Shown here piece after piece: positions 26,040-51,279 of a stretch of DNA of 55,379 nucleotides (its first letter is position 1; each line of letters opens with the position of its first letter). The stretch comes from SAR202 cluster bacterium (GTDB lineage: Bacteria; Chloroflexota; Dehalococcoidia; Lucifugimonadales; GCA-2712585). The DNA lies in contig VGZZ01000013.1 of NCBI GenBank assembly GCA_016872285.1, positions 1-55,379 on the forward strand, in the 5' to 3' direction. The notes below the pieces were generated by a model. The model ran no database searches. It had not been told where the DNA came from and saw nothing but the letters and a program-made list of their open reading frames with translations. A program made the translations under genes and the position numbers.

Positions 26040-28181
26040 CTAATGTCTCCTCCCCAACCACCCCGGCGCCCACCAGTTCCACCTGTCCATTATCCGCATC
26101 AGCGCCGGCACCAGAAACGCCCGCACCACCGTCGCGTCCAGGAACACCGCTATCGCCGTCCCCACTCCCAGCGCCTTCACGATGATCACATCCGCCGTCG
26201 CGAAGGCCAGCGCCACCAATACCAGCACCAGCGCCGCGCTGGTTATCACCGGCCCCGTCGCTTCCAGTCCCTCCGCCACGCTCCGCGTGTTGTCCCCCGT
26301 GGCGTCGTACCGCTCCTTCACCCTCGACAGCAAGAATATCTCGTAGTCCATGCTCACACCGAAGAGTATGGCGAACAGTATGATGGGCACCGATGCCTCG
26401 ATGCTCCCCTCCGACGCGAACCCCAGCAGCCCCTCCAAATGCCCCTCCTGGAAGATAAACACCAGCGCCCCGTAGCTGGAGAAGATGCTCATCATGTTCA
26501 TAATCGTCGCCTTCAGCGGCAGGAACACCGACCGGAATAAGACCAGCAGCGCCACGTAGATGGTCACCAGCACAAAGGCCACCGCCATGGGAAAGTCCGC
26601 GTACATCACGTCGATCGAGTCCATCAGGTCCGCCGTCGCCCCGCTTACCAGCAGCGTCGCCCCCGGCCCGGGGTCGATGGCCCGTATGTCCGAGACCAGG
26701 TCCTTCGCCTCCTCCTCCACCGGCGAGTGTCGAAGGTATGCCCGCACGATGGCTGTGTCGCTTCGAGCGAACTGCCGCAGCAGCGTCAGGTCCGGCGTCC
26801 CGCCCGTCGACGACAGGGCGTCCAGCGGGCTCTCCACCCTCGCCACCCTGGGGTCCCGCTCCAGCCTCTCCACCAGCTCTTGCATCCGGCCCAGCAGCTC
26901 CGGCCCCACCGCATCCCCCGAAAACTGCGCTACGATGATCACCGGCGACAGCTCCCCCGACCCTAGCTCCTCCTCCACCACCTCCCACCCCTGCCTCGAC
27001 GGCGACTCCTCCGGCAGCACCGACGCCCACGGCGACCCCAGCTTGACCCCCAGGAACGGTATCCCCAGCGCCACCAGCAGCGCCAGCAGCGGTATCGCCA
27101 CCAGCAAGGGCCGGCGCATCACCCCCAGCGCCAGCGTCCGCCAGTAGCTCCGCCCCTGCTTCCTCGACGCCAGCACCGGCAGCGCGTTGACCCTCGTTCC
27201 CACCACTGCCAGTATCGACGGCAGCAGCGTCAGCGCCGCCAGCATGGACACGGCGATTACCAGCATCCCGCCCACCCCCAGCGACCGCAGCATCATGAAG
27301 TCGAACAGCAGCAGCGACGCCAGCCCCAGTATCGACGTCACCGCCGAGAACACTATCGTCTTTCCCGATGTCGCCACTGCCACTTCTACCGCCTCATCCT
27401 TGGAACGACTCGCCAGCTCCTCTCGAAAACGACTCACCGTCAGCAGCGAGTAGTCCACCGCCAGTCCCAGCCCCAGGAACGACGCAATGTTCAGCGCGAA
27501 AATGGACATGTCGAAGCCCTGGGCCACGAAATACAGCAGCGCCAGCGCCGCCGATACTCCCACCGCGCCCACCACCACCGGTATCACCGCCGCCACTACC
27601 CCTCGAAACACAAACACCAGCGCCACCAGCACCAGCGGCACCGCCAGCATCTCCCCCCGCCGCAGGTCCTCCTCCGACGTGTCGTTTATTTCGGAAAAGA
27701 TGGGTATGCCGCCCGTGGTCCAGACCTTAAGCTCAGTTTCACCCAGCGAATCTTTAAGCCCGGAGATGCGGTCTATGGCCTCGTCAATATCCAGCTCCAG
27801 CCGCACCAGCGCGTAGGTCGTCCGCCCGTCTGCCGATACCATGGAAGGCGTGCCGCCGTCGTAGTAGGTGAGCACGTCCTCAACTTCGCGTCTGTCCCGC
27901 AGCGGCGACAGCGCCTTCTCTACCTCTTCTCTGTACCGCGCATCCGTCGCCGGAAGGCTGTCGCTCTGGAACACCACCGTAAAGCCCGCCTCGGTAGAGT
28001 CGAAGCGGTCCGCTATGATCTGCAGCGCCCGGCGCGACTCCGTGTCCACCTCGCCAAAGCCGCTCTTTAGCGGCTCCGTCACCCGCGCCAGCAGCGGCAG
28101 CGACACCACGAAAGCCGCCACCCACGCGGCGATAATCGCCCATCGATAGCGTACTGTGAATCGCCCCAGTCGTAGAAACAT
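26040..28181 (-). CDS. MMPL family RND-type exporter
   Basis: 713-residue membrane transporter with the MMPL architecture: an N-terminal transmembrane helix, a large extracytoplasmic loop (about 45-195), five or six helices, then a second repeat of loop plus helices. A L-G-L-A-V-D-Y-S-L-L-T-V-S-R motif and its counterpart near the C-terminal (F-G-V-S-M-D-Y-E-I-F-L-L-S-R) occupy the usual TM4/TM10 Asp positions. The start at ATG 28181 has AGGA five bases upstream. An earlier in-frame reading would run through the repeat at 28291-28475 and add non-family residues. Substrate unknown; lipid or drug export by analogy. Confidence 0.88.
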   Translation of the reverse strand: MFLRLGRFTVRYRWAIIAAWVAAFVVSLPLLARVTEPLKSGFGEVDTESRRALQIIADRFDSTEAGFTVVFQSDSLPATDARYREEVEKALSPLRDRREVEDVLTYYDGGTPSMVSADGRTTYALVRLELDIDEAIDRISGLKDSLGETELKVWTTGGIPIFSEINDTSEEDLRRGEMLAVPLVLVALVFVFRGVVAAVIPVVVGAVGVSAALALLYFVAQGFDMSIFALNIASFLGLGLAVDYSLLTVSRFREELASRSKDEAVEVAVATSGKTIVFSAVTSILGLASLLLFDFMMLRSLGVGGMLVIAVSMLAALTLLPSILAVVGTRVNALPVLASRKQGRSYWRTLALGVMRRPLLVAIPLLALLVALGIPFLGVKLGSPWASVLPEESPSRQGWEVVEEELGSGELSPVIIVAQFSGDAVGPELLGRMQELVERLERDPRVARVESPLDALSSTGGTPDLTLLRQFARSDTAIVRAYLRHSPVEEEAKDLVSDIRAIDPGPGATLLVSGATADLMDSIDVMYADFPMAVAFVLVTIYVALLVLFRSVFLPLKATIMNMMSIFSSYGALVFIFQEGHLEGLLGFASEGSIEASVPIILFAILFGVSMDYEIFLLSRVKERYDATGDNTRSVAEGLEATGPVITSAALVLVLVALAFATADVIIVKALGVGTAIAVFLDATVVRAFLVPALMRIMDRWNWWAPGWLGRRH

Positions 28182-28609
28182 AAACGTCCTGCCTATGATA
28201 CCCCCTCCCATCACTCTCGTCGAAATTTGTAATCTAAGTTTGTTCGGTCGCACCACTGTTGTATTAGTAGCCAGGCCACTCTTCATTGCTCCTTCTGGTT
28301 CTCCCCCTTCGGCCTGGAAGGCGAAGGGGGAGTTAGACGCCGTCCTGAGCCTGGTCGAAGGAGGGGGTTGTGGTATTTCTTTTTTCTTTCCCCTTCTTCC
28401 AGCGTGAGGCGCCGTCCCGAGTATCCCCCGAGGGAAAGAAGGGGACAAAGGGGATGAAGGTATCTCGACTGAGAACAGGAATGTGATGTGGATCACACGT
28501 CTTGAGGAGGAGTGGTTCGGGATGGGAATGATGAGGCCCCATAGCCACCGTTCTTCCTGCCCCCACACCCTAATGCTATACTTCCACCAGCCTCATCAGG
28601 AGCCGAATA
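28182..28609. other. Divergent intergenic region holding a composite repeat
   Basis: No supportable gene. It contains the two-hairpin repeat at 28291-28475; the rest is the shared upstream region of the MMPL gene (-) and the CoA-ester lyase gene (+). Confidence 0.6.
28291..28475. repeat. Two-hairpin composite repeat with inserted tips
   Basis: Starts CCTTCTGGTTC. The first hairpin is CTCCCCCTTCG / CGAAGGGGGAG. GTTAGACGCCGTCCTGAGCC continues into TGGTCGAAGGAGGGGGTTGTGG. The second hairpin, CCCCTTCTT / AAGAAGGGG, has an inserted tip ending in CCCGAGTATCCCCCGAGGGA. The tail is TCTCGACTGAGAAC. Confidence 0.8.
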
Positions 28610-48276: not shown

Positions 48277-51200
48277 TCAGGGCCTCACCTCCCGCCTCAC
48301 CAGCTCCGCCACCCCTGCCAGCGCCTCGTTCAGCTTATCCATCCGCTTTCCCCCCGCCTGCGCCGTGTCCGGCCTGCCGCCGCCTCCGCCTCCCACCACT
48401 TTCGCAGTCTCCCGCACGATATTCCCCGCGTGCAAGCCTCGCTTGATCAAATCCGGCGTCACCATCGACACCAGCAACGGGCTGCCGTTCTGCGACATCG
48501 CCAGCACCAGCACCGCGCTGCTTAGCTTGGCCTTCAGCCAGTCCCCCATCTCCCGCAGCGCCTCCACGCTGTTGGCCGACGTCTTTGCCGCCAGCACGTT
48601 CACCCCCTCCACCTGCTGCACCTTCCCCAATAGCTCCTGCGCCTCCGACTTCAGGCTCCGCCGCTCCAACTCCGCCACCCGCTTCCGCAACGACGACATC
48701 TCGTCCATGAACGATTGCAGCCGCCCCTCTACATCCGCTACCGGCGTCTCCAATCGTTTCGCGACGTTATACAAAATGTCCGTCCGCTCCACAAATAACG
48801 ACTCCGCCGACCTCCCCGTTACCGCCTCCACTCGACGCAGCCCGCCGCCTACACTGGCCTCGCCTAGAATAAATATCGGCCCCACCTCGCCCGTCGCGTG
48901 AACGTGGGTGCCACCGCACAGCTCCAGGCTGAAGGGCTTGTGCTCTCGGCGCTCCCCCATCGATACCACCCGCACCCTGTCGCCATACTTATCGCCGAAG
49001 AACGCCAGCGCGCCCTCCTGCACCGCCTGGGCATATGTGGTCTCCCTGGTCTTCACATCCAAATTGCCCCGCACCTTGCTGTTCACCAGGTCTTGAATGT
49101 CCCGCAATTCCTCCCGTGCCAAAGGACTCACGTGGGTGTAGTCGAATCGAAGCCGCTCCGGCGCCACCAGCGACCCCGCTTGCCGCACGTGCGACCCCAA
49201 AATCTGGCGAAGCGCCGCGTGTAATAGATGCGTCCCGCTGTGGTTCCGCGCCGTGTCCGCCCGCCTCGTCCCGTCCACCGACGCCTCTACCTTATCCCCC
49301 AGCGACACGTTCCCCTCCAGCACCACACCCTTGTGCACAATCAGTCCCGCGACGGGGCTCTGCGTATCCTTGACCTCCACCTTCCCTTTCGCCCCGACGA
49401 TATACCCCGCGTCGCCCACCTGCCCGCCGCCCTCGGCATAGAAAGGCGTCTCCTTCAGCACAACCTCCACCGTCTGCCCCTGCCCGGCGTGGCCCACCAG
49501 CCTCCCCTCCACCAGCAGCGCGATAACGCTGGTGTGCTTATGCAAATGTTGGTATCCAACAAACTCTGACTTCTCCACCCCCAAATTCTCATAGGCGGCG
49601 TGGACCTCCATACCCCCAGTCACCACATGCGCCGTCCGTGATTCCTGACGATGAATTTCCTGTGCCCTTTCGAAAGCCTCAAAATCTATTTCCAGCCCGT
49701 TCTCTCGTGCTATTTCTGCTGTTAGCTCCACAGGGAAGCCATAAGTGGATGCGAGCTGGAACACAATGTCGCCAGGCAGTTTGGTTGATATCTCTTCAAG
49801 TGAAGCCAAAACACTCCTTATTGAGCCTTTGTTAATTTCTGGAGTGGTGTCCCATCCTCCCTCGCCTGCTGCCCTATAGAGCCTCGTTAGCAGTTCTATC
49901 AGATTGGAAATGGCCCTGAAATAGCTTTCTGCGCTAACAGAAAAATTCAGGTCAACGCTATCTCTTCCCTTATCGAGCTTCTCCTTAACTGACCAAACTG
50001 TTTCAGTAGCTTGTGAGACCTGGAAACCCACACCACCACGTTTCGCCCTCTCGGTTAATAATGGCGTAAGGGCAGCCTTAATATTTCCTAAATCAGCTTT
50101 CGATAGGGTTTTAATTCCCCTTATGTACCCCTCAAGATGGTCACTTCCCTTACGTACTGTCTCGTTAAACCGCTCCTCCTCCAGGTTCACAACGCGCAAT
50201 ATGAAATCTCGATTTGTCCCCAAATCCGGGTACGCCCCCGAGAACCGGCGTATCGCCGCCTCCACCACCTCGCCCAGGAAGGCCCCCTCCAACCCCAAAC
50301 GACGCCCGTATCGAATGGCGCGCCGCAACACCCGGCGCAGCACGTAGCCCCGTCCCTCGTTGCTGGGCGCGACGCCGTCGCTGATAACAAAAGCCGCCGC
50401 CCGGCTGTGCTCCGCCACCACCCGCAGCGCGTAGTCCGTCTCCTTGTCCCGTCCGTACGCCTTCCCCGACAACTGCAACACCTTCTCGATGAGCGGCTTC
50501 AGCAAGTCCGTTTCATATACATTCGCCGCGTTCTGCACCACCGCTGCCGCCCTCTCCAGCCCCATCCCTGTATCAACACTCGGCGCAGGAAGCGGCGTCC
50601 GCTTCCCCTCCTCGTCCTGGTAGTACTGCATAAACACCAGGTTCCAGAGTTCGACAAATCGCTCGCACTCGTGATTGGGGTGGCACCCCGGCCCGTTAAT
50701 ATCTGACCCATCCCGAATAGGCTGCCCGCACCCCCGTTCGGCGCCGAAGTCATAATGCAGCTCGCTGCACGGCCCCGTCGGCCCCGTACGGCCTGCCGGG
50801 CCCCACCAGTTGGCCTCGTTGCCGTAACGATGTATACGCTTCGGGTCGACTCCCACCTCGTCCCGCCAGATGCCGTAAGCCTCCTCGTCGTCCAGATAAA
50901 CCGTGGCGTAGAACCGCTCCGGCTCCAGCCCATACCCCTCCGCCTTCGATGTCACAAACTCCCACGCCCATTTAATAGCGTCCCGCTTGAAATAGTCGCC
51001 GATGCTGAAGTTCCCCAGCATCTCGAAGAACGTTAGGTGCTTATGGTCGCCCACTTCGTCGATGTCCGTCGTCCTGAACGACTTCTGGCACGACGTCAGT
51101 CTTTTCGATGGCGGCGTCTGCTGGGCCGTGAAATACGGCTTCAGCGGCACCATCCCCGCGCTGGTGAACAGCAGCGTCGGGTCCCCCGCCGGCACCAGCG

Positions 51201-51279
51201 ACGCACTGGGCAGCGCGCTGTGTCCTCGCTTCTCAAAGAAAGCGCGAAATCTGTCTCGTATCTGGTCGCCTGTTAGCAT
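48277..51279 (-). CDS. alaS: Alanyl-tRNA synthetase with AT-rich insertion
   Basis: 1000-residue AlaRS; the family norm is about 870-900. The catalytic domain is complete (start M-L-T-G-D-Q-I-R-D-R-F; motif P-S-V-D-T-G-M-G-L-E-R). The editing site H-S-G-T-H and the C-G-G-T-H block are present, as is the C-terminal G-G-G-G-R-P-D-x-A-Q-A-G-G domain. About 115 extra residues (about 382-498) lie between the tRNA-recognition part and the L-P-G-D-I-V-F-Q-L-A-S-T-Y-G-F-P block. Over the insert (about 49785-50135) the DNA is visibly AT-richer than the rest. The reading frame is intact, so the enzyme is probably active. Hairpin repeats flank the gene. Confidence 0.96.
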   Translation of the reverse strand: MLTGDQIRDRFRAFFEKRGHSALPSASLVPAGDPTLLFTSAGMVPLKPYFTAQQTPPSKRLTSCQKSFRTTDIDEVGDHKHLTFFEMLGNFSIGDYFKRDAIKWAWEFVTSKAEGYGLEPERFYATVYLDDEEAYGIWRDEVGVDPKRIHRYGNEANWWGPAGRTGPTGPCSELHYDFGAERGCGQPIRDGSDINGPGCHPNHECERFVELWNLVFMQYYQDEEGKRTPLPAPSVDTGMGLERAAAVVQNAANVYETDLLKPLIEKVLQLSGKAYGRDKETDYALRVVAEHSRAAAFVISDGVAPSNEGRGYVLRRVLRRAIRYGRRLGLEGAFLGEVVEAAIRRFSGAYPDLGTNRDFILRVVNLEEERFNETVRKGSDHLEGYIRGIKTLSKADLGNIKAALTPLLTERAKRGGVGFQVSQATETVWSVKEKLDKGRDSVDLNFSVSAESYFRAISNLIELLTRLYRAAGEGGWDTTPEINKGSIRSVLASLEEISTKLPGDIVFQLASTYGFPVELTAEIARENGLEIDFEAFERAQEIHRQESRTAHVVTGGMEVHAAYENLGVEKSEFVGYQHLHKHTSVIALLVEGRLVGHAGQGQTVEVVLKETPFYAEGGGQVGDAGYIVGAKGKVEVKDTQSPVAGLIVHKGVVLEGNVSLGDKVEASVDGTRRADTARNHSGTHLLHAALRQILGSHVRQAGSLVAPERLRFDYTHVSPLAREELRDIQDLVNSKVRGNLDVKTRETTYAQAVQEGALAFFGDKYGDRVRVVSMGERREHKPFSLELCGGTHVHATGEVGPIFILGEASVGGGLRRVEAVTGRSAESLFVERTDILYNVAKRLETPVADVEGRLQSFMDEMSSLRKRVAELERRSLKSEAQELLGKVQQVEGVNVLAAKTSANSVEALREMGDWLKAKLSSAVLVLAMSQNGSPLLVSMVTPDLIKRGLHAGNIVRETAKVVGGGGGGRPDTAQAGGKRMDKLNEALAGVAELVRREVRP

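Follow-up and report, generated by a model that had tools for sequence, protein, structure and literature searches.

Unrelated inserted domains at one fixed site of alanyl-tRNA synthetase in a SAR202 cluster bacterium and its relatives

Alanyl-tRNA synthetase (AlaRS) is usually held to have a single, conserved architecture, and its gene alaS is regarded as a housekeeping gene that is passed on vertically. In other synthetases, the insertion domains INS of ProRS and CP1 of LeuRS are homologous, conserved and functional across phyla. Rickettsia palindromic elements are AT-rich, in-frame insertions in housekeeping genes and are repeated across one genome. An intein needs a Cys, Ser or Ala nucleophile at its N-terminus, a C-terminal His-Asn followed by Cys, Ser or Thr, and a Hint domain. 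Segmentally variable genes, as described by Zheng, Roberts and Kasif (2004, PMC387263), are conserved genes in which a stretch of at least 70 aa varies, and this stretch is proposed to form a binding surface that changes adaptively; the aminoacyl-tRNA synthetases are discussed there as a family, with passages on the insertion of ProRS. The active-site domain of AlaRS is stated to be free of insertion peptides (PMC10036535), and a 4-aa indel in AlaRS serves as a phylum signature (PMC1586193).

Comparison of the alaS insert with these systems showed that the segmentally variable gene is the closest known kind, with a segment of 63-149 aa (140 aa in the window, that is the whole stretch of 55,379 nucleotides that was analysed) and flanks that are 50-90% identical. 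The difference is that in alaS the whole segment is exchanged for another, inside single genera and in more than one phylum. Like INS and CP1, the AlaRS insert is an extra domain in a loop of the synthetase core, but it is non-homologous between close relatives. Like the Rickettsia palindromic elements it is AT-rich, in frame and located in a housekeeping gene, whereas it is confined to alaS. The 4-aa signature is also an AlaRS indel, but it is short and inherited, and is neither a domain nor exchanged. No report of a swapped domain at this AlaRS site, and no paper joining the term segmentally variable gene with alanyl-tRNA synthetase, was found in searches of an open-access library.

The features of the window are, in the direction of the gene:

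48277..51279, minus strand: alaS, alanyl-tRNA synthetase, 1000 aa (NCBIfam TIGR00344, 874 bits; Pfam tRNA-synt_2c, tRNA_SAD and DHHA1)
50359..50361, minus strand: codon of N307, aligned with E. coli Asn303 and retained (alignment to 3hxu)
50122..50181, minus strand: conserved EEERF helix running into the insert, aa 367-386 (GC3 0.55; synonymous sites AT-shifted in insert-bearing genes)
49783..50121, minus strand: variable inserted domain, aa 387-499, about 113 aa (length comparison with 138 other AlaRS, GC3 and AlphaFold2 model)
49747..49749, minus strand: codon of S511, aligned with E. coli Asp400 (alignment to 3hxu and column count)
49639..49782, minus strand: conserved LPGDIV...TYGFP block and next helix, aa 500-547 (AT-shifted; GC3 0.57, then 0.33)

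The alaS gene of the window is a single open frame of 1000 codons, intact as the original prediction had stated, and it encodes all the parts of a bacterial AlaRS, namely the class II catalytic core and the tRNA-recognition, editing (CGGTH) and DHHA1 domains. The AlphaFold2 model of this enzyme is confident in its core and gave a Foldseek TM of about 0.88 by target against AlaRS crystal structures, which are catalytic fragments. We compared it with a set assembled from the genes of relatives, a scan of public genomes and fetched regions, which amounted to 139 distinct rows with the window included. In the window, 140 aa separate EEERF (aa 367) from FQLASTYGFP (aa 507); since relatives that have no insert span 30-41 aa there, about 113 residues are extra, at aa 387-499, and the approximately 115 extra residues (about aa 382-498) and the positions 49640-50160 first proposed were right to within a few residues. 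Lengths at this site were bimodal, with a standard deviation of 42.5 versus 10.8 at the next most variable site of alaS; this bimodality sets the insert apart from any known variable loop of ordinary length.

A domain of 63-149 aa was present at the site in 40 of the 62 Dehalococcoidia, while the other 22 had a linker of 30-41 aa. The Clostridia, Actinomycetota and Deltaproteobacteria sampled had 30-38 aa at the site, as had nearly all the other sampled phyla, and inserts of 78-146 aa were found at the same position in Verrucomicrobiota, Ignavibacteriota and one Lysobacterales MAG. The reading of the segment as a domain was supported, but the pattern is wider than the one first proposed, with inserts that come and go within genera and occur in several phyla. 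The Verrucomicrobiota carriers include the isolates Roseibacillus ishigakijimensis (L048) and Rubritalea marina (L056); an assembly artefact was rejected in view of the inserts in these cultured isolates and in single-contig genomes.

The results of an all-against-all comparison of the inserts with shuffled controls (z scores) showed a few insert families and many singletons, and the similarity of two inserts was unrelated to the identity of their flanks. The closest relative of the window (G006) carries a different insert, which is AT-rich as well, rather than the same segment with a normal composition; the flanks of the two genes are 74/73% identical while their inserts gave a z of -1.3. Inserts of the same-genus pairs L026/L115 (G018/G053) and L006/L009 (G063/G034) gave z scores of -0.7 and 1.9 when the flanks were 88/88% and 86/81% identical, respectively. 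In genus g10, L005 has 137 aa at the site and L112 has 116 aa (a type B insert), while L125 and L135 are without insert: the lengths are 137 aa versus 37 aa in the pair L005/L125 (G070/G049), for which the sum of the end branches is 0.09, and 116 aa versus 35 aa in the pair L112/L135 (G012/G463). In the Verrucomicrobiota L046 and L063, whose flanks are 89/82% identical, the inserts are unrelated and measure 111 and 78 aa. Same-genus pairs with flanks 81-91% identical had inserts that were unrelated, or absent in one partner.

Conversely, related inserts were found in different families. The type B insert occurs in L008, L112, L113, L028, L165, L167 and L168 and, in all, in at least seven families, and its core motif RNPGxEN...LExYGFV is kept across families. 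The window type occurs in L001, L003 and L010, of which L003 and L010 belong to another family; its likeness is modest (27% identity to L003; z of 11 with L003 and of 7 with L010). The insert type of L115 is common to L148, again of a different family. In trees of alaS from which the inserts had been removed, the window grouped with its own GTDB family, so a transfer of the whole gene was ruled out as the source of the mosaic for the window. AU tests on the same insert-free alaS rejected monophyly of the window type (p 1.5e-83) and of type B (p 2.8e-109), the groups being taken from the inserts themselves via a chosen score threshold. Identity of type B inserts was 0.36-0.49 versus 0.48-0.55 in the C flank; as these inserts are only slightly less conserved than their flanks, gradual drift is unlikely to have made inserts unrelated in genes whose flanks are still 88% identical, and the loss of all similarity there points to replacement. 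The inserts of L001/L003 and of L009/L118 diverge faster than their own flanks, and rapid evolution may thus also apply to some inserts. Identity regains a level typical of the gene within a few dozen residues of the insert, and the boundaries are sharp at the protein level. The insert site is a fixed hot spot of AlaRS, where one domain takes the place of another, unrelated one, in the same genus as well as in several phyla.

The insert of the window has a GC content of 0.45, versus 0.63 in the remainder of alaS, and a GC3 of about 0.41 (0.38-0.42) versus about 0.79. The AT-richness first noticed was thus borne out, including that of the flank to about position 49640, as GC3 is 0.33 for aa 521-547 and 0.64 for aa 548-580. 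A control on 219 genes of at least 266 codons, taken from 20 stretches of the same genome plus the window (455 kb in total), showed that alaS has the largest intragenic drop of GC3 (-0.38), when the largest drop per gene has a mean of -0.09 and a standard deviation of 0.05. The low GC3 of the insert is not due to chance. An open frame of 113 codons has a probability of 0.0007 at the base composition of the insert, and in the relatives with an insert the alaS frame runs on across it. An AT-shift at synonymous sites was seen in 48 of 53 inserts (p 1e-9), insert GC3 tracks that of the host with a slope of 0.52, and the intergenic GC near alaS is 0.48-0.52.

Comparison of insert-bearing and insert-free genes showed that the EEERF helix is AT-shifted in the former, with p = 3e-4 in the class and p = 0.04 in other phyla, and the first block of 20 codons downstream of the insert is AT-shifted across the class (p = 0.018). 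In GC-rich hosts the shift extends over the adjoining conserved helix and over about 20 codons on the downstream side, in insert-bearing genes only. Since insert-free genes have the EEERF helix as well, the AT bias belongs to a tract of DNA and not solely to the inserted protein; the LPGDIV...TYGFP block and the helix after it (aa 500-547) probably belong to this tract. Two readings of the tract remain: co-import from an AT-richer pool, or the local absence of a GC-raising process for want of a recombining homologue.

GC3-poor segments were also seen in two other genes. In mutL of the same genome (L177:9989-12079, minus strand), a variable segment from about codon 247, probably the linker, is GC3-poor (0.53 versus 0.79), which is a milder case than that of alaS. 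In an ORF for an MMPL-family transporter (window 26043-28568, minus strand), the N-terminal region (codons 28-144 or so) is GC3-poor (0.51 versus 0.86), possibly because the start is misassigned or because extra sequence has been joined to the N-terminus.

The insert of the window was predicted by AlphaFold2 to be all-helical, with helices at aa 397-412, 421-440, 450-474 and 484-499, at moderate to low confidence; a pLDDT of about 49-77 makes its helical nature likely and its packing uncertain. In the model of the AlaRS of an Ignavibacteriota genome (L044), the site is occupied by strands and one short helix (alpha/beta, pLDDT of about 70-82). Judging from these models, the site seems to hold domains of different kinds.

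Asn303 and Asp400 of E. coli AlaRS read the G3:U70 pair of tRNA-Ala, and a Tupanvirus AlaRS is without the equivalents of both, which makes the pair typical rather than defining (PMC10036535). The insert falls between the residues aligned with Asn303 (N307) and Asp400 (position 511), in the loop joining the two parts of the tRNA-recognition domain that hold these residues. The numbering of the 3hxu chain was taken as offset by one, because N303 and D400 then both fit. The pair is incomplete in the window, where N307 is kept and position 511 is a Ser. An Asp is found in this column in 132 of 138 AlaRS, and all six that are without it, that of the window among them, carry an insert of at least 48 aa; the association of Asp loss with an enlarged insert gave a Fisher p of 0.003 (at least 48 aa) or 0.034 (60 aa cut-off), values that ignore relatedness and concern an association noticed in the data. 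The Asp is kept by 49 of 55 insert-bearing enzymes. The two tRNA-Ala genes found in the genome of the window keep G3:U70, and a changed tRNA identity was rejected on this ground.

We also searched for a mobile, RNA or known-family origin of the insert. No copy was found outside alaS in its own genome, where alaS is the sole place that holds it, so that it is not a dispersed in-frame repeat, and none was found outside alaS in 393 genomes of the class, two weak matches to other genes (E 0.002-0.007) being judged due to chance. Viral contigs gave no match to the insert of the window or to profiles of two insert types, phages none to the type B insert and plasmids none to the insert of the window, and a phage or plasmid source was rejected; no donor sequence was found in the class genomes or in the viral, phage and plasmid searches. 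The insert of the window contains no Cys and no His and matches no Hint or homing domain, and the intein or homing-endonuclease motifs that it had been thought worthwhile to look for are absent. No Rfam match was above threshold, the fold z was -0.32, and the frame is open in carriers. An intein, a homing element, an intron (group I or II) and bypass were rejected on the absence of motifs, RNA structure and stop codons. Matches to known families were weak at most in Pfam (NCH3, E 0.12) and PHROGs (phrog_28043, E 0.018). Repeats at the flanks were short and imperfect (13-28 nt) and were judged due to chance, and a repeat-flanked insertion was discarded.

These searches gave no support to the remnant of a mobile insertion that the original prediction had offered as one origin. 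A selfish in-frame element in alaS, such as a Rickettsia palindromic element, a mini-intein, or a segment that is spliced out or bypassed, would account for a single fixed site, for AT-richness and for presence and absence among close relatives; it is nevertheless very improbable, given the lack of copies outside alaS in its own genome and in the 393 genomes of the class, of Hint and homing domains and of an RNA fold, the open frame of carriers, and the occurrence at one site of unrelated sequences, which are unlike copies of a single element. An effect of the insert on recognition of tRNA-Ala, by which it would compensate for, or permit, the loss of the Asp that reads G3:U70, agrees with its position between both recognition residues, with the Ser of the window and with the six Asp-less enzymes that all carry an insert. 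We consider it improbable, though less so than a selfish element, as most insert-bearing enzymes retain the Asp, the tRNA-Ala of this genome retains G3:U70, the association has the limits given above, and the constant replacement of inserts would be left unexplained.

Vertical descent of an ancestral, weakly constrained domain that evolves very fast, is often lost and has become AT-rich by drift to mutational equilibrium is a more serious alternative, and still an unlikely one. The GC of nearby intergenic DNA, the GC3-poor linker of MutL, the dependence of insert GC3 on the host and the divergence of type B inserts roughly in step with their flanks all favour it, but inserts that evolve at about the speed of their flanks should stay recognisable in genes that are 88% identical, and they do not. 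The codons of the adjoining conserved helix are AT-shifted only when an insert is present, and the core motif of type B is conserved across families, which also argue against drift. We regard it as probable that the insert is a cassette-like, translated accessory domain at the AlaRS hot spot, which is block-replaced or differentially lost. Homologous recombination across the conserved flanks would exchange whole alleles of such a cassette; alternatively, old alleles would have been kept through speciation and lost differently. Both recombinational replacement and differential loss fit the data. The AT-shift would then mark a tract from elsewhere, or one left unhomogenised for lack of a counterpart in other strains. 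Exchange is what we infer from mosaics at the species level, mostly among MAGs, and acquisition of the segment by recombination, as was suggested at the outset, is supported by the unrelated inserts at the same site in close relatives.

As to why the cassettes vary, diversifying selection may tentatively be proposed, at a surface that would touch an antagonist (a phage or competitor protein, or a natural inhibitor) or a changing partner, the charging of tRNA-Ala being normal. More specifically, the insert might be a shield or a decoy that lineages exchange and that guards AlaRS from a phage protein, a competitor toxin or a natural product, independently in several phyla; this form of the proposal is rather unlikely. 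Exchange of whole domains within genera would imply strong and recurrent selection on a core enzyme of translation, and if an antagonist were the cause, there would be a natural route of attack on AlaRS that is new to knowledge. In practice, alignments and indels of alaS in these groups mix histories.

Other observations concerned AlaRS genes of relatives. The alaS of L026 (genome G018) has a second, small variable insertion after the position of aa 333 of the window; across the class this insertion measures about 30 aa at most. In the MAG G089 (L148/L151), alaS is split over two frames, perhaps by an assembly error. A separate protein (L002, G000:C3:47601-48233) resembles the AlaRS editing domain, with 29% identity over aa 599-817, and is probably an AlaX-type editing factor; proteins like it occur in several relatives.
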